NCBI GenBank assembly: GCA_017856815.1
Contig: JAFMEI010000006.1
Location: 1-34,045 of the forward strand
DNA length: 34,045 bases
Direction of reading: 5' to 3'
From: Ilumatobacteraceae bacterium
GTDB lineage: Bacteria > Actinomycetota > Acidimicrobiia > Acidimicrobiales > Ilumatobacteraceae
The position numbers were made by a program, and so were the translations under genes. Shown one piece after another: positions 9,557 through 34,045 of this stretch (positions are counted from its first letter, which is position 1; every line of letters starts with the position of its first letter). The notes beneath the pieces were generated by a model, which ran no database searches, was not told the DNA's origin, and saw only the letters and a list, made by a program, of their open reading frames with translations.

Positions 9557-10519
9557 GTGGCCAGGATGATTCCAACCGTTACGCATCCATTCACGGATTT
9601 GTCACTCGAACTCGCCGATCGTCGTGAGGGCAAAGTGCGCGTTTCATACGCTTTACCCAATCGGCGACGCTTGTTGGTGACCACTGATCGACTCTCCGCA
9701 CTTGATCGGGTTGTTACTGCCGTGCCCTACAAAGGCCAAGTTCTTAATCAACTTGCCGCGTGGTGGTTTGCGAAAACTCAAAGCATCATTGCCAATCATG
9801 TGATTGCGGTACCAGATCCAAATGTTCTCATTGCAGTGGATGCCACACCGCTACCAGTTGAAGTAGTCGTAAGAGGTGCGATCACCGGTAACACCTCGAC
9901 GTCTTTGTGGAGACAGTATGCGAATGGTGCCCGTGTGATTTATGGCCATCGCTTTGAAGATGGCTTAGAACGTGACTCTTTGTTGCCTGAGCCGTTGGTG
10001 ACACCCACCACAAAAGGTGTTTCAGGTTTGCATGACGAACCAATTAGCGAGAGCGAAGTGGTGAGTCGTGGGTTGGTAGACGCATCAACATGGGAGTCGG
10101 TCCGAACCGCCGCACTCTCTTTGTTCACTTTTGGTCAGCAGATTGCCAACCAAGCGGATTTGATTCTTGCGGACACCAAGTATGAATTCGGCTATGACCA
10201 AGATGGCCAATTGATTCTGATCGACGAAATGCACACTCCTGATTCATCGCGATTCTGGGAACGCTCTACTTATGAGACACGTGTTGCTGAGGGCGCTGAT
10301 CCTGAAAGCCTTGATAAGGAACCAATTCGACGCGCTCTTGCTGGTCTTGGTTACACGGGTGATGGTCCACCACCAGATCTTGGCGTAGGTGTCATTGAAG
10401 CGACATCTACTCGTTACATCAAAGCTTTTGAACGCATAACAGGAGATGAGTTCCTACCGGGACAATATCCAGTGGGTGACCGAATCAAATCTGCGCTGAA
10501 ATCCAAGGGAGTCCTGTGA
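9557..10519 (+). CDS. purC: SAICAR synthase (long form)
   Basis: GKVRVSYALPNRRRLLVTTDRLSALDRVVTAVPYKGQVLNQLAAWWF, PVEVVVRGAITGNTSTSLW, LILADTKYEFG, IDEMHTPDSSRFW. Confidence 0.94.
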   Translation: MARMIPTVTHPFTDLSLELADRREGKVRVSYALPNRRRLLVTTDRLSALDRVVTAVPYKGQVLNQLAAWWFAKTQSIIANHVIAVPDPNVLIAVDATPLPVEVVVRGAITGNTSTSLWRQYANGARVIYGHRFEDGLERDSLLPEPLVTPTTKGVSGLHDEPISESEVVSRGLVDASTWESVRTAALSLFTFGQQIANQADLILADTKYEFGYDQDGQLILIDEMHTPDSSRFWERSTYETRVAEGADPESLDKEPIRRALAGLGYTGDGPPPDLGVGVIEATSTRYIKAFERITGDEFLPGQYPVGDRIKSALKSKGVL

Positions 10520-17579: not shown

Positions 17580-18202
17580 GCCCAACTACGCCGCAGTTCT
17601 CGTAAGGCGCGCGCTTTGACGTCATTCCATTGTCCCGCTTGATTGCGAATTGTCCCAGCTGATGGCCGTTTTGTTGCAGGATCGCTCGCTGACCACTTCG
17701 CATAAGACTCAATTGATGCTGAGTCCGACGCAAGCAGAAACTCAGCCATGAAGTGCACCAGTTCATCTTCGGTCCAACTACGTGAATAATCATCCCGCGG
17801 GGTGTGGCCAATTGAAAGGCCAGCGAGTGCACATGCGTTTGCCCACGAACCAAAGACCTGGATTACCCGCGGCAATGTAGGTCCTTGAATGGCTCCTTCG
17901 GCTACGAGGTCGGCGTAATGCCCGCCTGAAAGCATTTCTGAACCGTTGGCAGCTTCACGGAGAGCTTGCAGGATCTTGTCGTTTGTCCAGATGGTCTGGT
18001 ACCCACCACGATTTTTGGTCTCTGACTCGAGATCGGTCACCAGATGCCGCACCCGCCTAGTTGTTAATTTGCGCGCATCCTCAGTGTGGATTCCAATTCC
18101 CAACGCAAGTTCTGTGTACGTAGCTCCCGGGTGCTCACGGAGCCACGATTCAATCTGCTCGACAACAATTCGCCGTTGTTCCGGCGAGCGCCGAGCTCTC
18201 AC
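17576..18202 (-). CDS. Standalone protein with homing-endonuclease-associated (HNH_repeat-like) repeats; putative DNA-binding
   Basis: MLSGGHYADLVAEGAIQGPTLPRVIQVFGSWANACALAGL and SIESYAKWSASDPATKRPSAGTIRNQAGQWNDVKARAL resemble the PT..i...fgsW..A...AGL repeat. N-terminal HTH-like segment. No HNH or LAGLIDADG nuclease motif. GTGA overlap with P450. Confidence 0.6.
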   Translation of the reverse strand: MRARRSPEQRRIVVEQIESWLREHPGATYTELALGIGIHTEDARKLTTRRVRHLVTDLESETKNRGGYQTIWTNDKILQALREAANGSEMLSGGHYADLVAEGAIQGPTLPRVIQVFGSWANACALAGLSIGHTPRDDYSRSWTEDELVHFMAEFLLASDSASIESYAKWSASDPATKRPSAGTIRNQAGQWNDVKARALRELRRSWA

Positions 18203-19446
18203 TTCAGAGAATATGTGACTGGAAGTCGCTTCAGCCCACCGACAAAAGTGGTGTGAATATGGGCGTAATCGCCGGCGAGTTCCATGGTTTTGATGCGAGG
18301 GATCAACTCGTTGAAGAACGTACGCATCTCCATGCGCGCGAGCATTGCACCAAGGCAGTAGTGAATACCGAAACCAAAAGCAAGGTGTCGGTTTGGTGTG
18401 CGACCAACATCAAACTTGAACGGGTCAGTGAAGGTGTCCTCGTCACGGTTACCAGATGGATAAGAGAGAAGAACTGACTCACCAGCCTTGATGGTGGTAT
18501 TGCGGATTGTGTAATCCTCGGTTGCGGTGCGCATGAAGTGAGTTACGGGAGAAACCCAACGGATCATCTCATCAACCGCTGTGGGGAGTAGAGACATGTC
18601 GTCTTGTAGCCGCTTCAGCTGATCTGGATTCTGCAACAGAGAAAGCATTCCACCTGCGATTGCCGCACTAGTGGTGTCGTGCCCTGCGGTTGCAGTGATT
18701 ATGTAATACGAGATCATCTCAACATCACCAAGTGGCTTGTCATACACCTCACCATTGGCGATCGTTGATGCAAGATCGTGAGTCGGGGTTGACTTGCGTG
18801 ATGCACTCAATTCACTGAAGTAGATGAAAAAGTCATTGATTACTTGAGTCAAATCTTCAATGGTGGTGCCACGCTGAAGATCAGGGTCTGCGTTGCCGAA
18901 CATTTCCTGGGTAAGCATGAGCATGCGCTGGTAGTCGGTCTCTGGCAATCCGAGAATCGCGAGAATCACTTGTAGTGGGTACTGCAATGCGATGTCGCGT
19001 GAGAAATCGCATTTGCCACCCAGATCAGCCATCTTGTCGACGGATTGTTTTGCGAGTTCGCTCATGCGGGCGTCTAGCCGCGCAAGGTTTTTGGGCAAAA
19101 ACCAATCAGCTGCCACCTTGCGATACTCGGCGTGGTCGGGATCATCCATGTGAATGAGGGTGCGAAGCATGTTCCCGTTGTTGCGAGTGTGATCGTCGGC
19201 TTCGGCATTGGCAAGAATCGGACGCGGCTCGTTCAAGAAGATATTGCTCTTGGCCTCGATCTCGAAGATGTCGGCATTTTTTGTAAGCAACCAGAAAGGG
19301 TAGTGATCTGGGGCATTCACAAGGTGAACGGGATCATGTTTGCGTAGCAAAGCGAGCTTGGCATGAAACTCATCAAACGTGCCCCAGGATGCGGGCACGG
19401 TGATCATGTTTCCAGCTTCTTCAAGTTGTGCTTGTAGATCTGACAT
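18199..19446 (-). CDS. Cytochrome P450
   Basis: ITATAGHDTTSAAIAGG (I-helix), DEMIRWVSPVTHFMR (ExxR), AFGFGIHYCLGAMLARMEMR (heme-binding Cys loop). Confidence 0.95.
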   Translation of the reverse strand: MSDLQAQLEEAGNMITVPASWGTFDEFHAKLALLRKHDPVHLVNAPDHYPFWLLTKNADIFEIEAKSNIFLNEPRPILANAEADDHTRNNGNMLRTLIHMDDPDHAEYRKVAADWFLPKNLARLDARMSELAKQSVDKMADLGGKCDFSRDIALQYPLQVILAILGLPETDYQRMLMLTQEMFGNADPDLQRGTTIEDLTQVINDFFIYFSELSASRKSTPTHDLASTIANGEVYDKPLGDVEMISYYIITATAGHDTTSAAIAGGMLSLLQNPDQLKRLQDDMSLLPTAVDEMIRWVSPVTHFMRTATEDYTIRNTTIKAGESVLLSYPSGNRDEDTFTDPFKFDVGRTPNRHLAFGFGIHYCLGAMLARMEMRTFFNELIPRIKTMELAGDYAHIHTTFVGGLKRLPVTYSLK

Positions 19447-19456
19447 GCGTGGGCTC

Positions 19457-20857
19457 CTATACCGCTTTACGAATTAGTTTCATCTTCTTTTCAGTGTAAG
19501 GCGGATAGGCGATGGAAGGATCAACCTTGGTGCTCTTACGAAGCACCGGCTTGCGGTGCTGGAAGATGTCAATGCTTGATTTGCCGTGATACGCACCCAT
19601 GCCACTTTCACCGACACCACCAAAAGGCAGATTCGGATTCGAGATATGGAGGATTGTGCCATTCACAGTGACACCACCTGCTGTAGTGCGTTCGATTACT
19701 GCATCAATCGCACGGTCGTCTTCACTGAATACGTAGAGAGCAAGTGGGTGTGGCTTTGAATTGATAAACGCGATCGCTTCAGCCACGTTGTCAATCTCAA
19801 CCATTGGAAGAATCGGCCCAAAGATCTCATCCTGCATCACAGGCGCGGAGACGTTCACATCGGCGAGCACGGTTGGGGCGATGTACTTGGTGTTGGCATC
19901 GGTTTCGCCGCCTATAACCACAGAGCCGCTCTCGAGCATCGATGTGAGTCGGTTGAAGTGATGACCATTGACAATTCGTGCGTAGTCCCCACTTTGTTTG
20001 GGGTCATCACCGTAGAACTCTTTGATCGCAGCACGAAGCTCTCCAATGAAGGTAGATGCCACTTTCTTGTCAACAAGTAGGTAGTCAGGCGCAATGCAGG
20101 TTTGTCCCGCATTCAAGAATTTGCCCCACGCGATTCGACGCGCTGCAACGCGAAGGTTTGCGGTTGCGTCAACAATGGTTGGGCTCTTGCCACCTAGTTC
20201 AAGTGTCACTGGCGTGAGGTGTTTAGCTGCTGCTTCCATTACGACTCGGCCGATGCGACCATTGCCTGTATAGAAGATGTGGTCAAATCTTTGTGCGAGT
20301 AGTTCGGTAGTTTCGGCGACACCACCTTCAATCACTTGGACTGCGTCAGGGTCCAAATAGCGTTGGATGAGCTCGGTGATCACTGTTGAAGTGTGTGGAG
20401 CAATCTCGCTCGGCTTCAAGACCACTGAGTTGCCCGCGGCAATTGCGCCGGCTGCTGGAGATAGCAACAACTGAATTGGATAGTTCCATGGCGAGATGAT
20501 CGCAACCACACCAAGTGGCTCAGCTACGCGGTGACTCGAACCGGGGAGCGCCACAATTGGAGTCGAAACACGCTCTGGGCGAGTCCACTTACGGAGATTT
20601 TTTTGCAGCAACTTGATCTCGCCAATTGTGAAACCGATGTCTGTGACCCAACCCTCGGCAGCGGGCTTACCTAGGTCTGCGGCCAGTGCGGCAAGTAGTT
20701 GCTCTGAGTTGTCCTCAAGCAGTTTGCGCATGCCATCAAGTTGTGCTCGGCGCCATGAGAGCGGTCGCGTGCGTCCCGAATCAAAGGCATCACGGGCACG
20801 CTGAACGATTGCGGGGATCGTTGCCACCGCAGTAGGGGTGAAGTCGGCAATAGTCAT
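19457..20857 (-). CDS. Aldehyde dehydrogenase family protein (class 3 / coniferyl-aldehyde-type)
   Basis: ISPWNYPIQLLLSPAAGAIAAGNSVVLKPSE, LELGGKSPTIVD, GKFLNAGQTCIAPDYLLV, PFGGVGESGMGAYHGKSSIDIFQH. Confidence 0.93.
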   Translation of the reverse strand: MTIADFTPTAVATIPAIVQRARDAFDSGRTRPLSWRRAQLDGMRKLLEDNSEQLLAALAADLGKPAAEGWVTDIGFTIGEIKLLQKNLRKWTRPERVSTPIVALPGSSHRVAEPLGVVAIISPWNYPIQLLLSPAAGAIAAGNSVVLKPSEIAPHTSTVITELIQRYLDPDAVQVIEGGVAETTELLAQRFDHIFYTGNGRIGRVVMEAAAKHLTPVTLELGGKSPTIVDATANLRVAARRIAWGKFLNAGQTCIAPDYLLVDKKVASTFIGELRAAIKEFYGDDPKQSGDYARIVNGHHFNRLTSMLESGSVVIGGETDANTKYIAPTVLADVNVSAPVMQDEIFGPILPMVEIDNVAEAIAFINSKPHPLALYVFSEDDRAIDAVIERTTAGGVTVNGTILHISNPNLPFGGVGESGMGAYHGKSSIDIFQHRKPVLRKSTKVDPSIAYPPYTEKKMKLIRKAV

Positions 20858-20911
20858 TTGAAAAGTGTTGCAGGTTCTCAGGCCATTTCCTCACGGCGTA
20901 CCCTTGAATGC

Positions 20912-21793
20912 ATGACTCAAGGCTCGTCTGTCACTGTGGCAGCCATACAAATGGCTATGGAGGCCGATTCTGCTGCGAATATTGCCCGCGCAGAAGGCCT
21001 TGTGCGGGAAGCCTCAGCCGCTGGCGCCCAGGTAATTCTCCTACCCGAACTCTTCGAAGGGCACTATTTCTGCAAAGACCAACACCCTGAATTCCTCAAG
21101 CTGGCGGTACCCGTTGAGGAAAATCCAGCCTTGGCGCGAATGTGCGAGGTAGCAGCAGAACTAAAAGTCGTGCTCCCGATCAGCATCTACGAGCGTGCGA
21201 ACCAAGCACTCTTTAACACCGTGGTCATTGTGGATGCCGATGGTCGCAAGATTGGCAAATACCGCAAAAGCCACATTCCAGATGGCCCCGGTTACACGGA
21301 AAAGTATTACTTCAGTCCCGGTGACACCGGATTCAAAGTATGGCCAACTGCATATGCGCAGATTGGTGTTGGAATTTGTTGGGATCAATGGTTTCCAGAA
21401 GCGGCGCGATGCATGGCTCTTGCGGGAGCCGAACTCCTGCTCTATCCAACGGCGATCGGGAGTGAGCCACCGAATCCTGAATGGGATTCAGCGGGGCATT
21501 GGCAACGCGCGATGCAAGGACACGCAGCATCAAATCTTGTGCCCGTGGTAGCGGCAAACCGTGTTGGGCACGAAGTAGGTATTGCCAACAGCATTACCTT
21601 CTATGGTTCGTCATTTATCAGTGATGCGACGGGCGAAAAAGTTCAAGAGCTAGATCGCATTAGCGAAGGATTCATCATCCAGTCTTTTGATCTTCAAGTA
21701 CAGGAAAGCATGCGCAATAGTTGGGGTCTTTTCCGTGACCGGCGCCCAGATTTATATCGCAATTTGACCACCCTTGACGGTGAACCTGAGTGA
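20912..21793 (+). CDS. aguB: N-carbamoylputrescine amidase
   Basis: Nitrilase superfamily: LLPELFEGHYFCKDQ, GKYRKSHIPDGPGYTEKYYFSPGDTGFKVW, GVGICWDQWFPEAARCMALAGAELLLYPTAIGSEP. Likely ATG at 20912. Confidence 0.92.
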   Translation: MTQGSSVTVAAIQMAMEADSAANIARAEGLVREASAAGAQVILLPELFEGHYFCKDQHPEFLKLAVPVEENPALARMCEVAAELKVVLPISIYERANQALFNTVVIVDADGRKIGKYRKSHIPDGPGYTEKYYFSPGDTGFKVWPTAYAQIGVGICWDQWFPEAARCMALAGAELLLYPTAIGSEPPNPEWDSAGHWQRAMQGHAASNLVPVVAANRVGHEVGIANSITFYGSSFISDATGEKVQELDRISEGFIIQSFDLQVQESMRNSWGLFRDRRPDLYRNLTTLDGEPE

Positions 21794-22800
21794 CACGAAT
21801 TCTTCCAGGTGAATTCGAAGCACATGCGGAGACCATCATGTGCTGGCCGGCACGTGAGTCGATCTACAAAGGGCACATAGCTGATGCCGAGAAAGCCCAT
21901 GCAGCCGTTGCGAATACCATCGCAGCGTTTGAACCACTAACTCTGCTGGTGCCACCCGAATCAGTTGCTTCAGCACGGAAACTCTGCAGTTCTTCCGTGG
22001 AATTAATCACGCTGGACATGGATGATGCGTGGTTTCGGGATACGGGACCGATTTACACAAAGGATTACTACCCCAGTGGAGAGGTGGAAGTTGTTGCCAC
22101 CGATTGGGAATTCAACGGATGGGGCGAGAAGTTTCGTCCCTTCGATCGCGACGCTTCGCTTGCTCGACGTTTTGCAGAGCTTCGTAGCCACAAACTTGAG
22201 CCAGTGCCAGTTGTTCTTGAAGGCGGATCAATCACGGGAAATGGCGCAGGGCTGTTAGTCACTACTGAGCAATGCCTCTTGAATCCGAATCGCAATCCAG
22301 GCTTGACACGTGCAGAACTAGAAAGCACCTTGCTTGATCGGCTTGGAGCCGAGCTGATGCTTTGGTTGCCTCATGGATTAGCGCTTGACTTTGATACCGA
22401 TGGACACGTCGACAATGTTGCAGCGTTTGTTAATCAGGGAACCCTCATGTTGCAGATGTGCAGTGACAGCTCTGAACCCGATCATGTGCGCTTGATTGAA
22501 AATCGGACAATTGCAGAAAACTTCATCGATGCGAACAAGTTGCAGATTGAAATTGTGGAAATTCCCGTACTGCCGTTCATTGGGAGTGGCGCGGATCGTT
22601 TGGTGGTGCCGTATCTGAATTTCTATATCGGAAACGGTTTTGTTCTCGTTCCGGTCGCCGGACAACGCACTGATGACGCAATGCTTGGAATCATTAGGCA
22701 GGTATTCACGGATCGTGAAGTAATCGGTCTCGAGGTGGGAGAGATTCTTGCGGTGGGTGGCGGTGGCATCCACTGCATCACGCAGCAAATACCGGCGTGA
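21790..22800 (+). CDS. aguA: Agmatine deiminase
   Basis: CWPARESIYKG, DMDDAWFRDTGPIY, NGWGEKFRPFDRD, LEGGSITGNGAGLLVTTEQCLLNPNRNPGLT, DFDTDGHVDNVAAF, GGGGIHCITQQIP. GTGA overlap with aguB. Confidence 0.94.
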   Translation: MTRILPGEFEAHAETIMCWPARESIYKGHIADAEKAHAAVANTIAAFEPLTLLVPPESVASARKLCSSSVELITLDMDDAWFRDTGPIYTKDYYPSGEVEVVATDWEFNGWGEKFRPFDRDASLARRFAELRSHKLEPVPVVLEGGSITGNGAGLLVTTEQCLLNPNRNPGLTRAELESTLLDRLGAELMLWLPHGLALDFDTDGHVDNVAAFVNQGTLMLQMCSDSSEPDHVRLIENRTIAENFIDANKLQIEIVEIPVLPFIGSGADRLVVPYLNFYIGNGFVLVPVAGQRTDDAMLGIIRQVFTDREVIGLEVGEILAVGGGGIHCITQQIPA

Positions 22801-24372
22801 TCAGACAGGTGCGTCACACTCGCGAAGTGGAAGTTGACGCGGTGGTTGCGAGGCCCATAGCGCTGCAATGAGATCGTCACGAGTTGCTTTGTGTGCGGGA
22901 GCATCAAAAAGGTTTTCGCGCTGCAGCGGATCATTCTGAAGGTTGTAGAGCTCACCTTCGGTGCCGTCATGCATCGTTCCTTTGCCGTACACCGAGCAAA
23001 CCCAGCCATCGCGGAGAATTGTCCGCTGGCTGACAATTTTGCCGAACATCACGCTGTCCCATTCCGTGAGAGTTTGCTCATGTCCAAGCGCGTTCGCATC
23101 TCCGCTACTTACAGGAAGCCGAGAGGCTTCGACATATTCAGGTCGCTCGAGGCCAGCGATGTCGGCAAAGGTTGCTGCGAGCGAGACAAGGCCAACTGGA
23201 TTGTCCACCACCTGAGGGGCGATCTGGGCGCTTGGTGCTGGGCGCCAAATAAGAGGAAGTCGCATCAACGAGTCCACGTGGTAGGGCCCCTTGAAAAGCA
23301 AGTTGAAATCTCCTTGGAATTCACCATGATCTGTAGTGAAGATGACATCAACATCATCGCCCCATCCGCGTTCGTCAATTTTGCTCAGCACTGATGCAAT
23401 TGCTTCGTCAATCATTTCGTTCATGATGTGGGCCATCGCATTGACTTCACGAGTTTGGTCAGCAGTCAGTGTTGACGGGACCCAGCGACGTGGCGGTTCA
23501 AAATTTGAATAGAACTTGCCCTCCCACCATGCTTTCCAATGCCGTGGCTTGTTCTCAAGTACGCGTTCGAGTTCACTTCGGTCTTCGATAAATCCTGCTG
23601 GCAAATCGAGGTCACGCCAATTAACACGATGCAACTCGCTCTGCGGGGGATCCCAAGGATGATGTGGATCGGGAAAGCTCATCCAACAGAACCAATCGGC
23701 GTCGGATTCCAATGACGCAAGCCAGTCCTTGGTGCGCTCGGCAACCCATGTGGTGTGGTACCAGTCGCGTGGAATTGGGTTGACCTTGACTTGAGGCGCA
23801 TTGGTATCACCACCGCCAGTTGCATTGACCTGCATTTCGGCACCGTCAAGCACTTGGTAATACATCTGCACAGCTTCTGGATGGTTGTTGGCGAGCCATC
23901 GTGCGTAGTGAAAAGGCCCAGCTCCACCATGAGTGCTTAAAGCAAGATGTTCAAAGCCGCGATGCGGCACTTCAGTGCCATTCTCATCACGGGTGTACTC
24001 AGTTGCGCGCTCATCGCGACCAAGGCGATTCTCTGCGAAGCGAAGAAATGGATCAAGGAAGGGTTCAAAATGAGCCTTGCCAATCAAGGCAGTTCGATAT
24101 CCAGAGCGCCAAAGATCCTCAGCGATGCTCGGGGCATCAATCGGCAGCGGAACACCATTCATCCAAACTCCATGTGTGGACGGGTGCTGTCCGGTGAGCA
24201 TTGTCGAACGACTCGGCATGCAAACCACGTTCTGGGGCTGCGCGCGCGTGTAGCGGATCCCAGAATGAGCGAGTGCATCGATTGTTGGCGTACGAGCCAC
24301 TGTGCCGCCATTGCATCCAAGTGAATCGAATCGTTGTTGATCGGTCGTAATGAAAAGAATCTTGCGTCCCAT
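22801..24372 (-). CDS. Cys-type sulfatase family hydrolase
   Basis: ILFITTDQQRFDSLGCNGG, VCMPSRSTMLTGQHPSTHG (C-x-P-S-R formylglycine motif), VIFTTDHGEFQGD. Confidence 0.93.
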   Translation of the reverse strand: MGRKILFITTDQQRFDSLGCNGGTVARTPTIDALAHSGIRYTRAQPQNVVCMPSRSTMLTGQHPSTHGVWMNGVPLPIDAPSIAEDLWRSGYRTALIGKAHFEPFLDPFLRFAENRLGRDERATEYTRDENGTEVPHRGFEHLALSTHGGAGPFHYARWLANNHPEAVQMYYQVLDGAEMQVNATGGGDTNAPQVKVNPIPRDWYHTTWVAERTKDWLASLESDADWFCWMSFPDPHHPWDPPQSELHRVNWRDLDLPAGFIEDRSELERVLENKPRHWKAWWEGKFYSNFEPPRRWVPSTLTADQTREVNAMAHIMNEMIDEAIASVLSKIDERGWGDDVDVIFTTDHGEFQGDFNLLFKGPYHVDSLMRLPLIWRPAPSAQIAPQVVDNPVGLVSLAATFADIAGLERPEYVEASRLPVSSGDANALGHEQTLTEWDSVMFGKIVSQRTILRDGWVCSVYGKGTMHDGTEGELYNLQNDPLQRENLFDAPAHKATRDDLIAALWASQPPRQLPLRECDAPV

Positions 24373-24759
24373 TTATGACTCCATCAACTGCTTGAGCTTC
24401 TGCAACCCGGCACCGGCAGCACCGCCGACCATCAACCCGAGTACCTCTGGTTCCATCTCGGTGCTGTAGATCACAACGCAGCCGCCATGTGGATCATCAA
24501 TGACATCAACCGTGCCTAGATGAGAGGTGATGATTGAGTTATTCACAATCTTGTATTGAAAGCGACGCAACGCATGGTCAAGCGTCACGATGTCTTCTTC
24601 AAACGTGATCCCAGAGGCCAGATAGATCCATCGTTTGTCGCCTTCAAGTTTGGTGCCAGTGGTCGGAAACCATTCGTGAAGCAATTCGGGCCGACCAACT
24701 AGCGCCCACACATCTTCAGCGGGTCTGTCAATAAAGATGTGGCGGCGGATTGTTGCCAT
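24373..24759 (-). CDS. SRPBCC family protein (polyketide cyclase/START-like)
   Basis: RRHIFIDRPAEDVWALVGRPELLHEWFP... and C-terminal small-residue helix, typical of SRPBCC. Confidence 0.8.
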   Translation of the reverse strand: MATIRRHIFIDRPAEDVWALVGRPELLHEWFPTTGTKLEGDKRWIYLASGITFEEDIVTLDHALRRFQYKIVNNSIITSHLGTVDVIDDPHGGCVVIYSTEMEPEVLGLMVGGAAGAGLQKLKQLMES

Positions 24760-24768
24760 TACTGAAAC

Positions 24769-25443
24769 CTACTCAATTTCCCAATCTATTGGCGGAACGC
24801 CCGCCAATTTCAGATATTCATTGGCTCGCGAAAACGGTTTGTGGCCGAAGAACCCGTTATGTGCCGAAAGAGGAGATGGATGCACCGATTCAATTACTTC
24901 GTGAATTGGGTTAGTAATGAGAGATCTCTTTTTCTTGGCACTGGCGCCCCACAATATGAATACAACACGCGTCTGCTTCTCGTTAACTACTTCAAGCACT
25001 CGATCGGTGAATAATTCCCATCCGCGACCAAAGTGTGATCCTGCTGATGCTTCGCGCACGGTGAGGGTTGTATTGAGAAGCAGAACACCTTCTCGCGCCC
25101 ATTTGTCGAGACAGCCGTGAGCGGGGATCGGATGTCCAAGATCATCGCGTAGCTCTTTATAAATGTTTTGTAGCGATGGAGGGACACGCACCCCGGGTCG
25201 TACCGAAAAGCAAAGTCCATGTGCTTGGCCCGGCTGATGGTACGGGTCTTGTCCAAGTAAGACCACCTTGGTTGAGGCAAGGGGAGTTTCGTGCAACGCA
25301 CGAAAGACCTCATCGTGGGGTGGATAAATGTTGTGATGCTTACGCTCGTTTTGGATGAACTCCTGAAGTGGCTGCCAGTAGGGCTTTTCAAATTCAGCCC
25401 TCAGAACCGGGTTCCAATCCGTAGTGGCACGGGCACCTGTCAT
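24769..25443 (-). CDS. ung: Uracil-DNA glycosylase, family 1
   Basis: VVLLGQDPYHQPGQAHGLCFSV, LLLNTTLTVREASAGSH, VHPSPLSAHNGFFGHKPFSRANEYL. Confidence 0.97.
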   Translation of the reverse strand: MTGARATTDWNPVLRAEFEKPYWQPLQEFIQNERKHHNIYPPHDEVFRALHETPLASTKVVLLGQDPYHQPGQAHGLCFSVRPGVRVPPSLQNIYKELRDDLGHPIPAHGCLDKWAREGVLLLNTTLTVREASAGSHFGRGWELFTDRVLEVVNEKQTRVVFILWGASAKKKRSLITNPIHEVIESVHPSPLSAHNGFFGHKPFSRANEYLKLAGVPPIDWEIE

Positions 25444-25575
25444 GCCCTGAATCTAGGCAAATGCGGGCGATTAAGTGTCACTGAGTAGGAATTAAATACA
25501 GTGCCTTAAATTCCTCTGCGCGTGTCTGGGTTTTACGATTTAGGGCATTCCGCAATCCCCAGGCGTCACACATCC

Positions 25576-26469
25576 ATGAATCTTTCAGTTGCAGTTGACA
25601 TCGGTGGCACCAAATTCGCTGCTGGTCTCGTCGACAAAAGCGGGCGCATAGTTGATCGGGTTGCAACTCGGGTGCCTAATCGGGCAAATGCCGAAGAGCT
25701 TTTTGAACTCGTGGCTGAGATTGTCTCACAGCAAATTGACCGCGCCACCAATCACCATGGAGGCCAGCCACTCGTCGTCGGGGTGGGTTCTGCCGGGCCA
25801 ATTACCCGCAACGTCGAGAGCATTTCACCGCTCAATCTGCTTGGATGGCGAGACTTTCCATTGCGCCAGCGACTCGTTGATCTCACTGGATTGCCAGTGT
25901 TCGGCGATGGTGATGCAAAGGCACTTGCTCTCGCCGAAGGTTGGCGCGGTGCAGCCAAGGGATACAACAGTTTTATTGCGATGGTCGTCTCCACCGGGGT
26001 TGGCGGCGGGATCGTCTTGAATGGCCGCTTGCTTGACGGCGAGACCGGAAATGCTGGCCACATTGGCCATGTGATTGTGGAACCCGATGGTCGTCGCTGC
26101 GACTGTGGTGCACGGGGCTGCTTGGAGGCTGAAGCGTCGGGGCCCGCCATTGAAGCAATCACGGGTCGACCGCCCACGCAGCCAACCTACGAAATCATGC
26201 AACGCACTGGTCGTTTGGTTGGGCGTGCCGTAGCGTCCGTCGTCAATTTGCTGGACCTTCCACTTGCAGTGGTCGGCGGCGGAGTGGCACTTGGTTTTGG
26301 TGCGACTTTTTTCCAGGCAGCACAAGATGAACTCGATGAACTCTGTGGACTTCAATTCGCCCGCGGGGCACGCATTGTGCCCGCAAAACTCGGTGATGCG
26401 GGACCGCTTGTTGGTGCAGGAGCAATTGGTTGGCGAGGCATGCGTCGCGCCGGAATATCAATCGACTAA
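25576..26469 (+). CDS. ROK family sugar kinase (glucokinase-like)
   Basis: MNLSVAVDIGGTKFAAGLVD, GETGNAGHIGHVIVEPDGRRCDCGARGCLEAEASG (CxCGxxGCxE). Confidence 0.92.
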   Translation: MNLSVAVDIGGTKFAAGLVDKSGRIVDRVATRVPNRANAEELFELVAEIVSQQIDRATNHHGGQPLVVGVGSAGPITRNVESISPLNLLGWRDFPLRQRLVDLTGLPVFGDGDAKALALAEGWRGAAKGYNSFIAMVVSTGVGGGIVLNGRLLDGETGNAGHIGHVIVEPDGRRCDCGARGCLEAEASGPAIEAITGRPPTQPTYEIMQRTGRLVGRAVASVVNLLDLPLAVVGGGVALGFGATFFQAAQDELDELCGLQFARGARIVPAKLGDAGPLVGAGAIGWRGMRRAGISID

Positions 26470-26485
26470 ATCAGATCGTCAGGAG

Positions 26486-27469
26486 CTAGAAAGAGGTTGC
26501 AGATACCCACTGCAATTCATCTGGGCTAGTTGTAACCAGTGGGCGCTGCACATCAATCCAATCGCCAACTTCAGGCAATGGATCACCTTCAGGCACAAAC
26601 ACCATTGATGTGTGCATGTGTGGCTTTTCAACCATGGCCATGCGGCGGCGTGCAAAATGAAATGGGCTTCTGCCTTCTGCAAGCTCCGCAACTCCTTGCG
26701 CAGTGCCAACGCCGAGGGAGAGCACGTGACCATCTTCTTTGATCAGACTGCGGTGATAGCCAACCCGATCCCCAGCTTTGACCGAGTGCACCGAAAGCAC
26801 ATCAGTGCTCAATTGCATCTGTGATTTATCGGCATGCCAAAGCGCCGTACCCACGCGAATGCTCATGGTCATACCATCAAACTCCGTCTGAAGATCATTG
26901 CAAGATTGCGGTGACAGATGGCTGAGAAACACATTTGAGTTTGGTGGGATGCGACGCAAAAAGTCGCGCACTTCTTCGCTGTTGTCTTCTTCGTCGGAGA
27001 TCAAAGGTGGATGAAAAGAAATTCCGATTACTCGCAGCCCACTTGCATTGGCGTGTGCAATCAGATCGGACATCTCCGACTTGCGCACCCCGTGACGGCG
27101 CATTGATGACCGCACCTTCACCACAACTGGGCAATCCCAGTTCTGCCGCGCAAGGGCATCAACATGTGCCACAGAACCAACTGTCAGCACGGTGTCACGC
27201 GAGAGAGTGACAGGAAGGTCATCCAAATGTGGTGTGAGCACCATGGCAGTGCAGTCGTCGGGCACATCGGCTGCTTCGAATACGGTGCCAACCGCGATCA
27301 GGCCGTCGCCGTATTCGTTAGCCAAACGTGCAGCCATAGGCATCAGTGCGGACCGACCAAATCCGTAGCCGGTTCCCTTCACAACAGGCACCACAGAACC
27401 AAATTCAGCAGCCACTCTCGCGGTGGTTGATTCCCACGCGGATTGGACCACGCGCAGACGCAAAGTCAT
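26486..27469 (-). CDS. Alanine racemase-like fold-type III PLP protein, divergent
   Basis: VVPVVKGTGYGFGRSALMPMA (PLP Lys region), VKVRSSMRRHGVRKSEM, SHLSPQ, MSIRVGTALWHAD, VKAGDRVGYHRSLIKEDGHVLSLGVGTAQGV. Short C-terminal beta domain. Confidence 0.7.
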   Translation of the reverse strand: MTLRLRVVQSAWESTTARVAAEFGSVVPVVKGTGYGFGRSALMPMAARLANEYGDGLIAVGTVFEAADVPDDCTAMVLTPHLDDLPVTLSRDTVLTVGSVAHVDALARQNWDCPVVVKVRSSMRRHGVRKSEMSDLIAHANASGLRVIGISFHPPLISDEEDNSEEVRDFLRRIPPNSNVFLSHLSPQSCNDLQTEFDGMTMSIRVGTALWHADKSQMQLSTDVLSVHSVKAGDRVGYHRSLIKEDGHVLSLGVGTAQGVAELAEGRSPFHFARRRMAMVEKPHMHTSMVFVPEGDPLPEVGDWIDVQRPLVTTSPDELQWVSATSF

Positions 27470-27576
27470 GCTTTGACCGTAGTGCCCGAGCTATCAATCC
27501 TTTGTGCCATATGGATTCAGCCCGCGAACTAAAAGTTGAGTTGTTTGGTCGGGTTTAGGTCGCTAGTTTCGAAGGC

Positions 27577-28077
27577 ATGGCAATTCGCTTTGACTTCCCA
27601 AACCCCGTCAACGAGACCTCGGCACGACTCGTAGCCACGGGCGTAGTTGCAATGGGTGTCGCCTTCGTGGCGTTGCAAAGCGGTTGGATTCTGATTGCGC
27701 TTACATATGGGTTTCTCGCACGAGTTCTGTTTGGTCCACGGTTCAGCCCGCTTGGTCGATTTGTTACCGACGTCATCACGCCGCGTTTGAACTTGCGTCA
27801 TCGTTTGTCACCAGGTCAACCAAAGCGCTTTGCACAAGGCATTGGACTCTTGTTCTCTGTAGTTGCATCAGTGGCGTGGATATTTGGCGCGCACACAGTG
27901 GCAACGGTTGTAATCATCATGTTGATCGCAGCAGCATCACTGGAAGCTTTTGTTGGGTTTTGTCTTGGATGCGCAATCTTCAAAGTGTTGATGCGCGTTG
28001 GGGTCATTCCAGAATCAGTGTGCTTTGAATGCGCTGATATCTCGCGCCGTATCGAAGAAGGCACCGTCAGGGCTTAG
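27577..28077 (+). CDS. DUF4395 family membrane protein
   Basis: FDFPNPVNETSARLVATGVVAMG...YGFLARVLFGPRFSPLGRFVTDVITPRL, GFCLGCAIF. Matches the DUF4395 pattern. Confidence 0.85.
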   Translation: MAIRFDFPNPVNETSARLVATGVVAMGVAFVALQSGWILIALTYGFLARVLFGPRFSPLGRFVTDVITPRLNLRHRLSPGQPKRFAQGIGLLFSVVASVAWIFGAHTVATVVIIMLIAAASLEAFVGFCLGCAIFKVLMRVGVIPESVCFECADISRRIEEGTVRA

Positions 28078-29446
28078 AAATTCTCGGCGCCAGCGGCGCT
28101 GGTGTGCGCTCGGTTGCGCATCCCTCCCAGACACCAGTTGCATATGCAGCATCGTCAATGGCCCGCAAAGACACGTATCGGATTGGGTCCAGCCTGGGTC
28201 GTTTTCGCAACCAGTCAACAAATGCCGGAAGAAGAGAAGAGGCTACCAATATGCGACGTGCAGTTCGTGAGAAGACCGCTGCACCAAGTGCAAGAGGTAA
28301 CCAAACTCGTGTTATCGCGCGGGCAATAGAAACCCCGGCATGCCAGTGGCCGAGCATTGCGAGTCGAGTTGCTTCAAACCAACGATTCGGCAACGACGGC
28401 AATTTACGAGCTAACGACACTGCGGTGTAGACCACAATCGGAATTGCAAGCCAGCGTCTTTTTGTCCCAAGCAACGCAACGATTGCCACACTCCAGAAGT
28501 TGGCGACAACAGGCGCCAACGCACCAGGGTGACGCGTAGCCAATGAAGCGGCAGCTCGGCCATAACCGCGCCGTTGATCTACCCAAGACCAAAAATCAGA
28601 TCTCGCATCGTGTGTGACTTCAACTGCACTCTCATAGAGCACCCAATGAAGTGGAGAGTCAAGTCGCCAAACGAGGTCAACATCCTCACCCGTGGAAAGT
28701 TCAGGATCAAACCCGCCTTCGTCGCGCACCGCCGCAGTACGCGCTACAAGGCAGGCAGTGGGTACATAACTAACTCGTGTGCCCGCCCTTACTCTCGCTG
28801 GTCGCTTTCCAAGATCCAGCGGACTGTCAGTCTCCTCAAATCGACCAAAGATTGAGTTGGTGTTCGGAGTGCCGATTATCCGAGGTGCTGTTGCAACGAT
28901 TGATTGGTTCTGAAGGTGCGAAGCAAGCATGAGCAAGTCATGAACTTCTAGGTGGACATCAGAATCGACAAATGCGATCAATTCGGTCTCTGTTGCTGCG
29001 AGCCCGGCGTTACGGGCACCTGCGGGCCCAGTGTTCCATTCATTACGCATTATTTGACAGTTCGATGGAACTGCGAACGCACCAGAGATCGGATGAGGGG
29101 AATGGTCGTCGACAATGATTAGGGAGCGGCACTCGGAGAGTTTGAACACAAGCGATTCCAGAGCGTCAACATCACGTTTCTCGCGTGCATAAACAGGAAT
29201 CACAACGGTGATTTCATGTAGGAGGGAACGGTCAGCGGGTTCAAGCATCGGTACCACTGCACCCGCGTCCAAGAAACGATTCGCAAGAGCCATCTCAGTA
29301 GCGGAAATCTCTTCTCGGTGTTCTATTCGCTCAGCAACTACGCGTCCCTTGTCGGTCAGGTTGAAGAGCTTTATTGGTGATCCGGCAATGACTGTGGATC
29401 CATTCATCGGTCGACGCCAGGTCTTATCGGCTCGAAATCGGGTCAT
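28067..29446 (-). CDS. mftF: Mycofactocin-system glycosyltransferase (GT2)
   Basis: TVVIPVYAREKRDVDALESLV, LIIVDDHSPHP, NTGPAGARNAGLAAT, FVDSDVH, DSPLDLGKRPARVRAGTRVSYVPTACLVART, GGFDPELSTGEDVDLVWRL. Adjacent to mftE. Confidence 0.87.
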   Translation of the reverse strand: MTRFRADKTWRRPMNGSTVIAGSPIKLFNLTDKGRVVAERIEHREEISATEMALANRFLDAGAVVPMLEPADRSLLHEITVVIPVYAREKRDVDALESLVFKLSECRSLIIVDDHSPHPISGAFAVPSNCQIMRNEWNTGPAGARNAGLAATETELIAFVDSDVHLEVHDLLMLASHLQNQSIVATAPRIIGTPNTNSIFGRFEETDSPLDLGKRPARVRAGTRVSYVPTACLVARTAAVRDEGGFDPELSTGEDVDLVWRLDSPLHWVLYESAVEVTHDARSDFWSWVDQRRGYGRAAASLATRHPGALAPVVANFWSVAIVALLGTKRRWLAIPIVVYTAVSLARKLPSLPNRWFEATRLAMLGHWHAGVSIARAITRVWLPLALGAAVFSRTARRILVASSLLPAFVDWLRKRPRLDPIRYVSLRAIDDAAYATGVWEGCATERTPAPLAPRISKP

Positions 29447-30069
29447 CGCATCCAGTTTTTCACGGCGATAACCAGGTCATTGACCAGCATCTTTAGGATT
29501 TCATTACCCGCTTCGACACTTGAACCGCTCGGATCACCGAGCACTCCGTTGGGGCTCACCGCAGCGATTCCGCCGGCAATTATCTGGGGCAAAATCGAAC
29601 CAATTGGCTGGGTGTTTCCAATCTCGGCCCGCGCGAGGTCAACCTGTTCTGGCGCAATGGCGAGCATGATCGAAGTCTCAGTGTGCCCAGCATGCGCATC
29701 ACCTCCTGGGACCTGCGGCCACCACGACATTGCGCGCCGCTTTTCGTACGCGGTCACTTCCATGGCTTTGGTAATTGCCTGCAGATTGCCGCCGTGGCCA
29801 TTCACCAAGACAACACCATCAGACCAATCTGCTGATCTAATCATCTCAACGACAATCTGAGTGACTGCCTCATTGCCGATTGACAATGTGTTGGCAAACC
29901 CACTGTGTTCGCCGCTTGAAGATACCGTGATTGCTGGTCCAAGCATCATGCCAGGGAGTGAACGCACTAATTCGCGCGCAAGGTGGTTGGCAATTCGTGT
30001 GTCGGTGTCCGACGGCAAATGCGGACCGTGTTGTTCGAAGGAGCCGACGGGTATTACTACGACACTCAC
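29443..30069 (-). CDS. mftE: Mycofactocin precursor peptide peptidase, creatininase family
   Basis: IPVGSFEQHGPHLPSDTDTRIANHLA, VLVNGHGGNLQAI, GGDAHAGHTETSIMLAI, VSPNGVLGDPSGSS. GTG at 30069 gives a 4-nt GTGA overlap with the upstream gene. Confidence 0.87.
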   Translation of the reverse strand: MSVVVIPVGSFEQHGPHLPSDTDTRIANHLARELVRSLPGMMLGPAITVSSSGEHSGFANTLSIGNEAVTQIVVEMIRSADWSDGVVLVNGHGGNLQAITKAMEVTAYEKRRAMSWWPQVPGGDAHAGHTETSIMLAIAPEQVDLARAEIGNTQPIGSILPQIIAGGIAAVSPNGVLGDPSGSSVEAGNEILKMLVNDLVIAVKNWMR

Positions 30070-30875
30070 GAAGTTAGATAGCCCCACTCGCGCATCGCCT
30101 GAATGATTCGCTCAGCTGCTTCAGATGGTGAGAGTGTCACGAGTTCGCCACGACTCTTGGCCGCTGTTGAATCAGTAAGAGCCCGAATACGGTCTATCGC
30201 TTGGTTGCCTTTGGGCGGCGCAACGATTCGAGTTGGTGGCCGATAGCGGGTGATTTCACCGTTGAGGTCAGCATTGATCCCCGCATTTGCCGTAGGTATG
30301 TTGGCACTACGGGCAGCCAAGGTACCTGCAAGGGATGCGCGACGAAGTTTTGCAACAGATCCTTCGACAGAAATAACCGCCGGCGAATTAGAACTTGGAG
30401 CAACTCGTACAACTTCGCGGCGGCCACCATCGAGACGGCGCACACATTCCAAGTTTGTGCCTTTGCGTTCTACAGCAACCAAGCCGAGAGCTTGTGAGGC
30501 GCCAAGTTGCGCAGCCAGAAATGCAGGAACGCTGCCGCTGCCGCGGTCGGCTGAATAGTCCCCGCAAACAATTAACTCACAACCACCCAGATGTTGCGCC
30601 AATGAAACTGCAACATCGCGGGAACTTGGCTGCGCGCCACAGGCAACGAACTGAACAGCGGTAGCGCCAACCGCTAGGGAATCTCGAAGTGCAGCAACCG
30701 CTGCTTCGGGACCGATACAAACAACTTTGACTTGGTCACCAATACTGAGCGCTACTTCGAGTGCCGCCTGATCCGCCAATGAGACGCCCCCAAATCGGTC
30801 ATCAGTCAGGACTGATCCAGACGTGTCCACTTCGGGCCGACCTGGGGTCCATTTGATGCAAACTCCAACCAACAT
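30066..30875 (-). CDS. Electron transfer flavoprotein beta subunit, FixA-like
   Basis: MLVGVCIKWTPGRPEVDTSGSVLTDDRFGGVSLADQAALEVALSIGDQVKVVCIGPEAA...ELIVCGDYSADRGSGSVPAFLAAQLGASQALGLVAVE. ATG at 30875, since the longer ORF to 30977 overlaps the ferredoxin gene. Confidence 0.88.
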   Translation of the reverse strand: MLVGVCIKWTPGRPEVDTSGSVLTDDRFGGVSLADQAALEVALSIGDQVKVVCIGPEAAVAALRDSLAVGATAVQFVACGAQPSSRDVAVSLAQHLGGCELIVCGDYSADRGSGSVPAFLAAQLGASQALGLVAVERKGTNLECVRRLDGGRREVVRVAPSSNSPAVISVEGSVAKLRRASLAGTLAARSANIPTANAGINADLNGEITRYRPPTRIVAPPKGNQAIDRIRALTDSTAAKSRGELVTLSPSEAAERIIQAMREWGYLTS

Positions 30876-30883
30876 CTGGGTGC

Positions 30884-31174
30884 TCAGGTGCGTTGGAACA
30901 CGATTCCGTGCCCGCCCTCGGGGTAACTCCAACTGATCGCACCTTCTTTGTTGCAGACGAGATAACAAGTCCCGCACTCAAAGCACTGTTCATAGTTGAA
31001 GACAATTCCGCCAGCTGCAGTAGGCACAAACAAATTTGCGGGACACGCTGTGACGCATTCAGTGGTTGAGCATTCAGCACAAACCTTGCCATCCACCACG
31101 ATGTGAGCGCGCTCGTGCACACGAAATTCCGAGTGTGCCATCCGCTCTTCGAATGAAATCTGTTGCTGACTCAT
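30884..31174 (-). CDS. FixX-like ferredoxin family protein
   Basis: KVCAECSTTECVTACPANLF...EQCFECGTCYLVCNKEGAISWSYPEGGHGIVFQ, the FixX pattern ending W-YP-GG-G. Confidence 0.92.
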   Translation of the reverse strand: MSQQQISFEERMAHSEFRVHERAHIVVDGKVCAECSTTECVTACPANLFVPTAAGGIVFNYEQCFECGTCYLVCNKEGAISWSYPEGGHGIVFQRT

Positions 31175-32475
31175 CCAAAGCTCCTAAATCCGGTCCATCC
31201 ATCTCGCGCAAGATCCGACAGTTTCACACCGGCTCGCTTGCGCTCCTGTTTCAGGATACGACGAATACCAGGCTTTGGCTTGGGGTTGTCAACGGTGAAC
31301 ATGCGTTCAACAAGATTGGCAACCATCTGTGGGTACAAGTGCTGCACGCGATCGGACAACACCAGATGTGGGGCGTGCCTCAGTTTCTTGTGGTCCTGGA
31401 GCACAAAGGTGTTCTCGAGCCGTTTGCGGTATCCAGCGAGGCCCGATGCGTTGCAGTTTCCTGACTCAATTGCTTCCACGGCAGCTTCACCGGCGTACAT
31501 TCCTGATGCCATCGCAAAGTTGACACCTTCCAGCCAGATTCCTGCCGCTAGACACATTGCTGCGGCATCCCCGGCAACCATCAGACCGTCGGCGGTCAAC
31601 TTGGGCATCATTTCATAGCCAGCTTCTGGAATCACGTGAGCTGAGTACTCCTTGATTTCGCCGCCTTTGATTAATGGAGCGATCGCCGGGTGTGCTTTTA
31701 GTTTCGCAAGTATTTGTTCGGGCCGAGTTTTTTGAGCAGCAAGCTTCGAAAGTTTGAGTACAACACCGACCGCGACGGTATCGAGTTGGGTATATACAAA
31801 GCCCCCACCATTAACCCCATTGGTTCCGCCCAGAATTTCAATGTCAACACCTTCACGATCGGTCACAGCAAAACGCTCATCAATCGTTTCTTTTGGCAAA
31901 GAGATTGTCTCTTTTACACCGAGTGTGTAATTGTCAGCATCAACATCGGGATATAGACCGGCTTCTTTCGCTAGAAAACTGTTCACTCCATCGCAGGCGA
32001 TGACGATAGGTGCAGTTAAATCACCATCGGGTCGGTCAGTATGCACTCCGGTGACCGCACCGTTTGTGTGGCGTATGAGCCCGGTCACGGTGGTTGAGGT
32101 AACCAGCACTGCGCCAGCTGCGACTGCATGGTCAGCGAGCCACGCATCAAAGTCCGGTCGATATGCGGTTGCGCCGTTGTACGGCGGCGCCCCCCAATTT
32201 TGTGAGCGAAAGTCAATCGTGAGTGCCTGTGTGTCTGTTAGCAACATTGTTGAGCGCCGAGTGACCCAGCGCTGAATTGGCGCCTCTTCCCACCAATTCG
32301 GGATCAACTCGTCAAGAATGCGCGGGTACACAACTCCGCCGTACATGTTTTTTGATCCAGCGAAGGGTCCGCGTTCAATCAGCGCTACTCGTTTTCCTGC
32401 GCGCGCTAAAACAATTGCCGCACACGAACCCGCCGGGCCAGCACCAACAACAATGGCGTCAAAGTCCGTACTCAT
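31171..32475 (-). CDS. FixC-like FAD-dependent oxidoreductase (ETF:quinone oxidoreductase family)
   Basis: DAIVVGAGPAGSCAAIVLARAGKRVALIERGPFAGSKNMYGGVVYPRILDELIPNW, VIACDGVNSFLAKEAGL, LMVAGDAAAMCL, WLEGVNFAMASGMYAGEAAVEAI. Confidence 0.93.
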   Translation of the reverse strand: MSTDFDAIVVGAGPAGSCAAIVLARAGKRVALIERGPFAGSKNMYGGVVYPRILDELIPNWWEEAPIQRWVTRRSTMLLTDTQALTIDFRSQNWGAPPYNGATAYRPDFDAWLADHAVAAGAVLVTSTTVTGLIRHTNGAVTGVHTDRPDGDLTAPIVIACDGVNSFLAKEAGLYPDVDADNYTLGVKETISLPKETIDERFAVTDREGVDIEILGGTNGVNGGGFVYTQLDTVAVGVVLKLSKLAAQKTRPEQILAKLKAHPAIAPLIKGGEIKEYSAHVIPEAGYEMMPKLTADGLMVAGDAAAMCLAAGIWLEGVNFAMASGMYAGEAAVEAIESGNCNASGLAGYRKRLENTFVLQDHKKLRHAPHLVLSDRVQHLYPQMVANLVERMFTVDNPKPKPGIRRILKQERKRAGVKLSDLARDGWTGFRSFG

Positions 32476-33392
32476 GCTGCACCAGCGTTTCTGCCAAGTC
32501 GTTGTTCTAGTTCTGCAACTACAGCATTTGCATCACAAACAATCGCAAGATCCGACATTTGCATCATCGGGCAATGCGGATCGGTATTCACACTGATCAC
32601 ATGATCGGGTTGACCGAGTCCACTGGTGTGTTGAACAGCACCAGAAACTCCAAAGGCAATGTACAAATCTGGATCAACAACAACGCCGGTGGTACCAATT
32701 TGGCGTGAGTGACCCACCCAGCCTCGGTCCGTCACCACACGTGTGGCCCCCATAGAGGCTCCAAGTTCAGCAGCGATGTTTCCGAGTTGGCCAAACACCG
32801 ATTCATCGAGGAGTCCTGCGCCGCCCCCGAAAATCCGTTTTGCTTCGGCAAGATCCATCGTGGCTGCGTCAGGCTCGCGTTCTTCAATAAACGCGACATC
32901 ATTTCCATTACCGAGGTGTAACTCAACCGCCGTTATCTGTAGTGGACCATCTACCGAGACAGGGGAGTGGAGCCCTGGCATCACACTCGCTACACAGTGA
33001 CCAGATGTTCGAACGAGTTCCATCGCGAGCCCACCCCAACGCGCCATCTGAATTTCAAGTTCACCATCTTGGTTTTTGATCTCTGCCACTGAGCCGAAGT
33101 AGGCGCAGCCGCTTGCAGCCGCTATCCGCGGGGCAAGGTCGCGACCATCAGGACATCCAGGTAGAACGATGATCTCCTCACCGATGTGTCCATGGAGCGC
33201 AGTACTCCATGCATCGGGGCGAAACTTTCCAACTTCTGCACAGCTAACTTCATTAGCCAAACCAGCAAGTTCTTGTGCCGCGGCTTGGGTGCCTTCCCCA
33301 ATCAGCAGAATGCCACCCTGGCCATATTCGGAGGCGACTTCAGCGCCGCCAGCGGGCAACCTTCCACCCCGAACAGGTACAACTACGAACAC
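32472..33392 (-). CDS. Electron transfer flavoprotein alpha subunit, FixB-like
   Basis: C-terminal FAD domain TRVVTDRGWVGHSRQIGTTGVVVDPDLYIAFGVSGAVQHTSGLGQPDHVISVNTDPHCPMMQMSDLAIVCD. Confidence 0.92.
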   Translation of the reverse strand: MFVVVPVRGGRLPAGGAEVASEYGQGGILLIGEGTQAAAQELAGLANEVSCAEVGKFRPDAWSTALHGHIGEEIIVLPGCPDGRDLAPRIAAASGCAYFGSVAEIKNQDGELEIQMARWGGLAMELVRTSGHCVASVMPGLHSPVSVDGPLQITAVELHLGNGNDVAFIEEREPDAATMDLAEAKRIFGGGAGLLDESVFGQLGNIAAELGASMGATRVVTDRGWVGHSRQIGTTGVVVDPDLYIAFGVSGAVQHTSGLGQPDHVISVNTDPHCPMMQMSDLAIVCDANAVVAELEQRLGRNAGAA

Positions 33393-33430: not shown

Positions 33431-34045
33431 TCAACGGGGTCGGTTGTGGCGGATGTATCGGATGACCTCGATAATTACGGTTATCGATATGGCGGTCAGG
33501 AAAGCGACGATAAATGCAAGTGTGTGGTTGTCCTCAAAGGCTTTGCCACCGAAGTACCCAAGTGTTGCGGCGTAACTCGCCCAAATCACCGACGCCACGC
33601 CGATCCATCGAGCAAACCAACGATGTTCCTGTTCGGTCGTTCCACAACTGATCGTGAGAATCGTGCGTCCACCTGGAATGAAGCGCCCAGTTATGAGCAG
33701 CAAGCCTCCGCGTTGTTCGATCTGGTTATGAGCCCATTGAAGACGTTGTCGCCCCTTCTCAGTTCGGTCGTAGCGACGGTGGATGCGTTCACTAAATGAA
33801 CGGCCAATGAGATATGCGATGTTGTCGCCAGAGAAGGCGCCACATGCGCCTGCAGCAATTACCAACGGGAGAAAAAGCTTTCCATCCTCTGCGCCACCTG
33901 CACCAGCAGCGACACCTCCGATGATCACCATTGTTTCGCTGGGTACGACTGGGAGAACGGCATCCAACAAAGCAATAGAAAAGATGATCAGGTAGAAGGT
34001 TGGATCGGATGAAAACTCCTTCAGCCAATCGAAGAAGTCATTAAC
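33431..34045 (-). CDS. DedA family (VTT-domain) membrane protein, N-terminus truncated by the right window edge
   Basis: Track ORF starts at an internal TTG at 33970, but the frame continues upstream to the edge: VNDFFDWLKEFSSDPTFYLIIFSIALLDAVLPVVPSETMVIIGGVAAGAGG...GAFSGDNIAYLIGRSFSERIHRR...RFIPGGRTILTISCGTTEQEHRWFARW. Confidence 0.88.
   Translation of the reverse strand, partial: VNDFFDWLKEFSSDPTFYLIIFSIALLDAVLPVVPSETMVIIGGVAAGAGGAEDGKLFLPLVIAAGACGAFSGDNIAYLIGRSFSERIHRRYDRTEKGRQRLQWAHNQIEQRGGLLLITGRFIPGGRTILTISCGTTEQEHRWFARWIGVASVIWASYAATLGYFGGKAFEDNHTLAFIVAFLTAISITVIIEVIRYIRHNRPR

Follow-up and report, generated by a model that had tools for sequence, protein, structure and literature searches.

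This locus raises the question of how mycofactocin may be matured where MftD is missing, and why genes for its late-stage enzymes MftE and MftF are joined to a set of electron transfer genes. The window, a 34,045-nucleotide contig of an Ilumatobacteraceae bacterium (JAFMEI010000006.1, assembly GCA_017856815.1), carries on its minus strand six genes encoding EtfA, a FixC-like electron transfer flavoprotein (ETF):quinone oxidoreductase (ETF:QO), the ferredoxin FixX, EtfB, MftE and MftF. These six genes had been recognized in an earlier note made from the letters of the window, and their coordinates and names were confirmed by the open reading frames (ORFs) and by NCBIfam and PDB matches. Four of them are named as mycofactocin proteins by curated NCBIfam models, all above cut-off (MftF, MftE, mft_etfA and mft_etfB), and the note was correct in recalling that databases name ETF subunits as mycofactocin-associated (mft_etfA NF038209, mft_etfB TIGR04503). 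We consider it probable, at about 0.58, that an OYE-family flavoenzyme together with a canonical ETF and ETF:QO replaces the O2-linked MftD in this cluster and delivers the electrons to quinone, a reading derived from gene content and protein sequences.

The window is one entire contig (C143) of a 1.83-Mb genome that is assembled in 171 contigs and is 96.6% complete. Another contig of this genome, C25, ends in 55 bases that recur exactly at the start of the reverse-complemented C143, a typical assembly-graph overlap. On C25, mftA, mftB and mftC are located at 16.4-17.9 kb and are followed by OYE1, plsY and OYE2, and the gene for an N,N-dimethyl-4-nitrosoaniline (NDMA)-dependent alcohol dehydrogenase (ADH) diverges from mftA. 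Here, MftC scored 617.7 bits (cut-off 265) and MftB 100.8 bits (TIGR03967, cut-off 33), OYE1 (TIGR03996) and OYE2 (TIGR03997) exceeded their curated cut-offs, and mftA was identified by the C-terminus ...EELLVEEISIDGMCGVY (...SIDGMCGVY). In a sister genome (L109, Loclat_bin-05774), ADH-mftB-mftC-OYE1-plsY-OYE2-dedA-etfA-fixC are all found on a single contig, with which 800 bp spanning the C25-C143 join are colinear and gapless over 788 bp at 90% identity. The complete order through mftF, the DUF4395 gene and an alanine-racemase-like gene is present on one contig in the same-family genome G071. Given the 55-bp overlap and the colinear order in L109 and in the relative L065, the mft genes are contiguous, and the window holds the right-hand half of a single MftD-less mycofactocin cluster, severed by the contig end. 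A split locus lacking mftA, mftB and mftC, as described in the earlier note, is thereby ruled out as a biological feature, and the genome without mftA and mftC that the note had also considered is not the one found, both genes being on C25. The absence of mftD, which the note had seen in the window, extends to the whole source genome, where the best match to MftD in a profile search reached 31 bits against a cut-off of 470.85. Presence and absence across genomes were decided throughout by such profile searches and the model cut-offs, and most of the genomes are metagenome-assembled genomes (MAGs).

MftD deaminates 3-amino-5-[(4-hydroxyphenyl)methyl]-4,4-dimethyl-2-pyrrolidinone (AHDP) to premycofactocin (PMC11778925), in a step described as aerobic (PMC8406134). 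It occurs in most, not all, mycofactocin species according to a report whose accessible part names no substitute (Haft 2011, PMC3023750). Among 60 mftC-positive Actinomycetota genomes, 47 had MftD and 11 had OYE2 above cut-off, and none had both (Fisher p 2e-10, uncorrected for phylogeny). Twelve of the 13 MftD-less genomes possess OYE2-type and ETF/Fix genes, in most cases adjoining the mft genes. These 13 comprise nine genomes with mft_etfA, three with a divergent set beside mftC (G130, G318 and G475; EtfA was not separately resolved in G318), and G306, of which only a 2.6-kb mftC contig is known and whose same-genus relative G365 has MftD. Of the nine genomes with mft_etfA, eight have OYE1 above cut-off and one, G095, has a contig-end fragment of it.

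The same picture was obtained from an independent scan for OYE2 relatives, which covered 85,462 species and gave 80 named loci. In many of these loci the order OYE1-OYE2-(dedA)-etfA-fixC-fixX-etfB-mftE-mftF recurs, and MftD was above cut-off in only one of 50 further OYE2-positive genomes. This genome, G533 (L211), is the sole one with both OYE2 and MftD above cut-off; its MftD lies on a 5.3-kb contig (C179) of a 6.4-Mb MAG and is possibly a contamination. Isolates are among the carriers: Amycolatopsis xylanica and Frankia sp. CIT1 have the module and no MftD above cut-off. ETF genes were missing from the flanks of some OYE2 loci, which may be due to contig ends or to an OYE2 gene distant from mft, as in G019 and G051.

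Plasmid-borne clusters fall into the same two types. Among 12 plasmid mftC loci, four have MftD (Streptomyces NBC_00080, Mycolicibacterium chubuense, Thermomicrobium roseum and Tsukamurella), and in the other eight (six Streptomyces, Haloterrigena turkmenica and Halolamina sp. CBA1230) the plasmid encodes the OYE/ETF/Fix set but not MftD. In Streptomyces NBC_00080, mftD is situated between mftC and mftE; the same slot in NBC_00564 is occupied by OYE1-OYE2-etfA-fixC-fixX-etfB. Several ETF-type clusters (L214, L222, L223 and L224) reside on large linear Streptomyces plasmids near polyketide synthase and regulator genes. The haloarchaeal minimal set consists of EtfA, FixC, FixX, EtfB and a single OYE2-like enzyme, with 36-38% identity to OYE2 and 29-30% to OYE1. 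These haloarchaeal genes (L217 17486-23184, L218 16491-22723) carry general annotation only, and 3' of them are VWA/AAA-ATPase genes and several mycofactocin-coupled short-chain dehydrogenases/reductases (SDRs).

Across bacteria and haloarchaea, the module is present almost exactly where MftD is missing. The ETF itself also follows mycofactocin: mft_etfA was above cut-off in 8 of 148 genomes of the class (30 of them mftC-positive; Fisher p ~1e-6) and in 8 of 378 genomes of the phylum (56 mftC-positive; p ~1e-7), in both scans exclusively in mftC-positive genomes. This co-occurrence, anticipated in the earlier note, supports the ETF/ETF:QO set as a dedicated part of the mycofactocin system. The note had further proposed that the set oxidises or recycles mycofactocin. 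Its dedication to the system stands; recycling is an incomplete description, since the module and MftD exclude each other, which points to replacement of the biosynthetic MftD step at least as much as to recycling.

The type of ETF was assessed from two signatures of bifurcating systems, an invariant Gly in EtfB (position 123 in A. fermentans; PMC12630350) and the Arg of the alpha-subunit motif RPxFGG, which is required for bifurcation (PMC10734219). The EtfB of the window has Arg at the Gly position, as do 55 of 58 relatives. The EtfA of the window has Met for the motif Arg, which 68 of 69 relatives likewise lack. A third motif, GxxSPTxV, aligned poorly and was dropped. A bifurcating system, which had been raised as a possibility beforehand, was rejected on these two tests. 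Since both signatures are absent, the ETF of the window is predicted to be canonical and non-bifurcating, and to feed FixX and FixC. It resembles the bifurcating FixABCX/EtfABCX of T. maritima (7KOE) in its four parts A, B, C and X, in FixC and in the Cys residues of the two-cluster FixX, but the EtfB Gly and the alpha Arg of those systems are not kept.

In the proposed mechanism, MftC would cyclise the Val-Tyr end of MftA and MftE would release AHDP, as is established for mycobacteria and taken to hold here as well. The next step, oxidation of AHDP to the keto-amide premycofactocin in place of MftD, would fall to a flavoenzyme of the OYE family with FMN and [4Fe-4S], most likely OYE2. From this enzyme the electrons would pass to the dedicated EtfA/EtfB, on to FixX and FixC, and finally to menaquinone. 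Glycosylation by MftF would follow. Because the electrons would leave via ETF and ETF:QO, maturation would be independent of the oxygen-linked MftD reaction. Compared with the mycobacterial mftABCDEF(G) cluster (Haft 2011, PMC3023750; MftG, PMC11778925), mftA, mftB, mftC, mftE and mftF are shared, as is the NDMA-dependent ADH gene beside mftA; in contrast, neither mftD nor mftG is found above cut-off, and OYE1, OYE2, EtfA, FixC, FixX and EtfB are present instead.

A parallel for the proposed OYE2 reaction is offered by a relative of OYE2, trimethylamine dehydrogenase (TMADH), an amine-oxidising enzyme whose [4Fe-4S] centre passes electrons to ETF (PMC8097209). OYE2 shares the OYE-type FMN barrel, the [4Fe-4S] site and the nucleotide-binding domains with TMADH and histamine dehydrogenase, and ETF, the electron exit of TMADH, is proposed to be that of OYE2 as well. 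The four [4Fe-4S] cysteines of OYE2 (C342, C345, C349 and C361) are conserved in 11 of 12 sequences. OYE2 also retains an active-site His matching TMADH His172, and it has a Ser where dienoyl-CoA reductase (DCR) has a Tyr.

The two cluster types appear to have been exchanged repeatedly. On the best maximum-likelihood MftC tree (53 sequences), whose signal may include transfer of whole clusters, nine type changes were counted, at least five of them on well-supported branches, and in five of five independent pairs the gain of one type accompanies the lack of the other. The nearest neighbour of the source genome on this tree is the MftD-type genome G039, although this pairing is not firm (ultrafast bootstrap 97, SH-aLRT 53). 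G039, a member of the same family, carries the corresponding chromosomal valS-to-ung locus without OYE1, OYE2, dedA and the ETF/Fix genes, and encodes MftD elsewhere. The sulfatase, SRPBCC-like, ung, alanine-racemase-like and DUF4395 genes beyond mftF (22801-28077 of the window) keep their places in G039 (L103), and this flank is therefore older than the exchange. We lean slightly towards two alternative routes to the keto-amide, one by MftD and an O2-independent one by OYE/ETF/ETF:QO, which would have been swapped repeatedly in Actinomycetota and of which the second would also be haloarchaeal.

Several points weigh against replacement of MftD by this module. The same mutual exclusion would be expected of two cluster lineages, one marked by the module and the other by MftD, that each spread as a unit. 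With five pairs, the lowest p that a sign test can give is 0.06, short of 0.05; the tree thus supports the exclusion without proving it. For the haloarchaea, the absence of MftD refers to the plasmid clusters, as neither chromosome was searched for it. Regarding the enzyme, OYE2 lacks the Cys that forms 6-S-cysteinyl-FMN (Leu27 is invariant in 12 actinobacterial sequences) and has no equivalents of the TMADH residues Tyr169 and Asp267. Its closest solved relatives are reductases, namely naphthoyl-CoA reductase (272 bits) and DCR (236 bits), with histamine dehydrogenase (194 bits) and TMADH (181 bits) behind them, and BaiCD gave the next-highest score after the OYE_2 model itself. Lastly, gene content, contiguity, the absence of MftD, its mutual exclusion with the module and the canonical ETF residues were observed, but AHDP as the substrate, the choice of OYE enzyme, the direction in which electrons flow and the quinone acceptor are inferred.

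The main rival is recycling, with OYE2 (or OYE1) acting as a mycofactocinol dehydrogenase whose electrons pass via ETF/ETF:QO to menaquinone, in the role that MftG has in mycobacteria; this reading is close to that of the earlier note. Electrons run downhill between mycofactocinol and menaquinone (-255 to -74 mV), and MftG is absent from about 25% of the genomes that have MftC, where its substitute is not known (PMC11778925). In our searches, MftG (TIGR03970) was above cut-off in none of the 30 mftC-positive genomes of the class and in no ETF-type genome searched; as a positive control, the model found 12 genomes above cut-off, all of family f60. However, recycling does not predict the exclusion of MftD, and it leaves the deamination of AHDP without an enzyme. 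Moreover, 35 MftD-positive genomes without MftG above cut-off are also without the ETF module. The module thus does not track the lack of MftG, and its role as a simple stand-in for the missing MftG is weakened. Recycling alone is therefore less favoured, and we regard it as unlikely. It is a little less probable still that both functions are combined, with one OYE paralogue standing in for MftD, the other re-oxidising the cofactor, and both sharing the ETF/ETF:QO exit to quinone. This would suit the two OYE paralogues of most clusters, in which neither MftD nor MftG is present, yet an OYE2-like gene occurs alone in G318, G475 and two haloarchaeal clusters that likewise have no MftD (judged on the genome for the former two and on the cluster for the latter).

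The module might instead install a chemical change in mycofactocin and not replace MftD at all, and no metabolite has been reported from carrier organisms in the literature examined. This appears improbable, as the MftA sequences terminate in the same GVY core and MftE, MftF and the NDMA-type or SDR nicotinoprotein partners are retained. Mere clustering of a generic ETF, with the split produced by genome rearrangement, is hardly credible: ETFs are common, and contig C53 of the source genome encodes another EtfA of the general kind, but the mycofactocin-type ETF alpha is confined to mftC-positive genomes, on which ground chance clustering was rejected, and the split is an assembly break.

Replacement of MftD by the OYE/ETF/ETF:QO module would touch on two published gaps, namely the mycofactocin organisms that are devoid of MftD and the re-oxidation of mycofactocin in the genomes without MftG. 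The compact gene set is a candidate for the first gap and possibly for both. If true, quinone would take the place of oxygen as the electron sink in the maturation of a ribosomal peptide cofactor, as would suit low-oxygen habitats; the module also occurs in isolates (Streptomyces, for example NBC_00564 and NBC_00334, Amycolatopsis xylanica and Frankia). The NCBIfam names mft_etfA, mft_etfB, OYE_1 and OYE_2 and the non-universality of MftD (Haft 2011) are known. The exclusion of MftD, the exchange of the two gene sets at one position and the archaeal form appear to be undescribed in the literature searched, much of which was out of reach, and in the part of the literature that our search reached, no paper pairing mycofactocin with an electron transfer flavoprotein was found. 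As for the NCBIfam names themselves (mft_etfA, mft_etfB, mycofact_OYE_1 and mycofact_OYE_2), they denote association only.

The features of the window that belong to the cluster or border on it are collected in Table 1. Adjacent genes overlap by 4 nt at etfA/fixC (32475/32472), fixC/fixX (31174/31171), etfB/mftE (30069/30066) and mftE/mftF (29446/29443), and 8 nt separate fixX from etfB, which starts with the ATG at 30875; both the overlaps and the gap agree with the earlier note. E. coli-type FixC and FixX models match the window proteins below cut-off.

Table 1. Cluster and border features of the window, with supporting matches.
Feature	Positions	Strand	Evidence and remarks
DUF4395 gene	27577..28077	+	PF14340; convergent with mftF
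mftF, mycofactocin glycosyltransferase	28067..29446	-	TIGR03965, 366 bits (cut-off 280)
mftE, creatininase-family peptidase	29443..30069	-	TIGR03964, 258 bits (cut-off 172); GTG start at 30069, longer ORF reaches 30087
etfB (FixA-like), mycofactocin-associated ETF beta	30066..30875	-	TIGR04503 mft_etfB, 204 bits (cut-off 200)
fixX ferredoxin	30884..31174	-	Fer4 families; Cys for two [4Fe-4S]: C32,35,40,44 / C64,67,70,74
fixC-like ETF:QO (FAD)	31171..32475	-	best PDB match T. maritima EtfC/FixC 7koe_C, E 3.5e-75, 256 bits; ETFQO_UQ-bd PF21162
etfA (FixB-like), mycofactocin-associated ETF alpha	32472..33392	-	NF038209 mft_etfA, 327 bits (cut-off 240)
dedA-like membrane protein gene (VTT domain)	33431..34045	-	PF09335; truncated by contig end; between OYE2 and etfA in relatives (L065, many named loci)
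55-bp exact overlap with right end of contig C25	33991..34045		suffix/prefix comparison

The DUF4395 gene is the conserved right border of the mycofactocin cluster and lies outside the pathway, with the same border in ETF-type L065 and MftD-type L103. Many Ilumatobacteraceae-type clusters (L065, L113-L150) keep the DedA/VTT gene at its place between OYE2 and etfA, where it was not seen in Microthrixaceae or Streptomyces clusters. Further away from the cluster, minus-strand P450 and aldehyde dehydrogenase genes are located beside a plus-strand pair of the carbon-nitrogen hydrolase / agmatine-deiminase type (PAD_porph) at 18199-22800. A purine biosynthesis run occupies the plus strand at 6033-14216, with PurL/PurS-like, PurC and PurF-type amidotransferase genes and a 757-aa ORF containing PurD and AIRS (PurM-like) domains.

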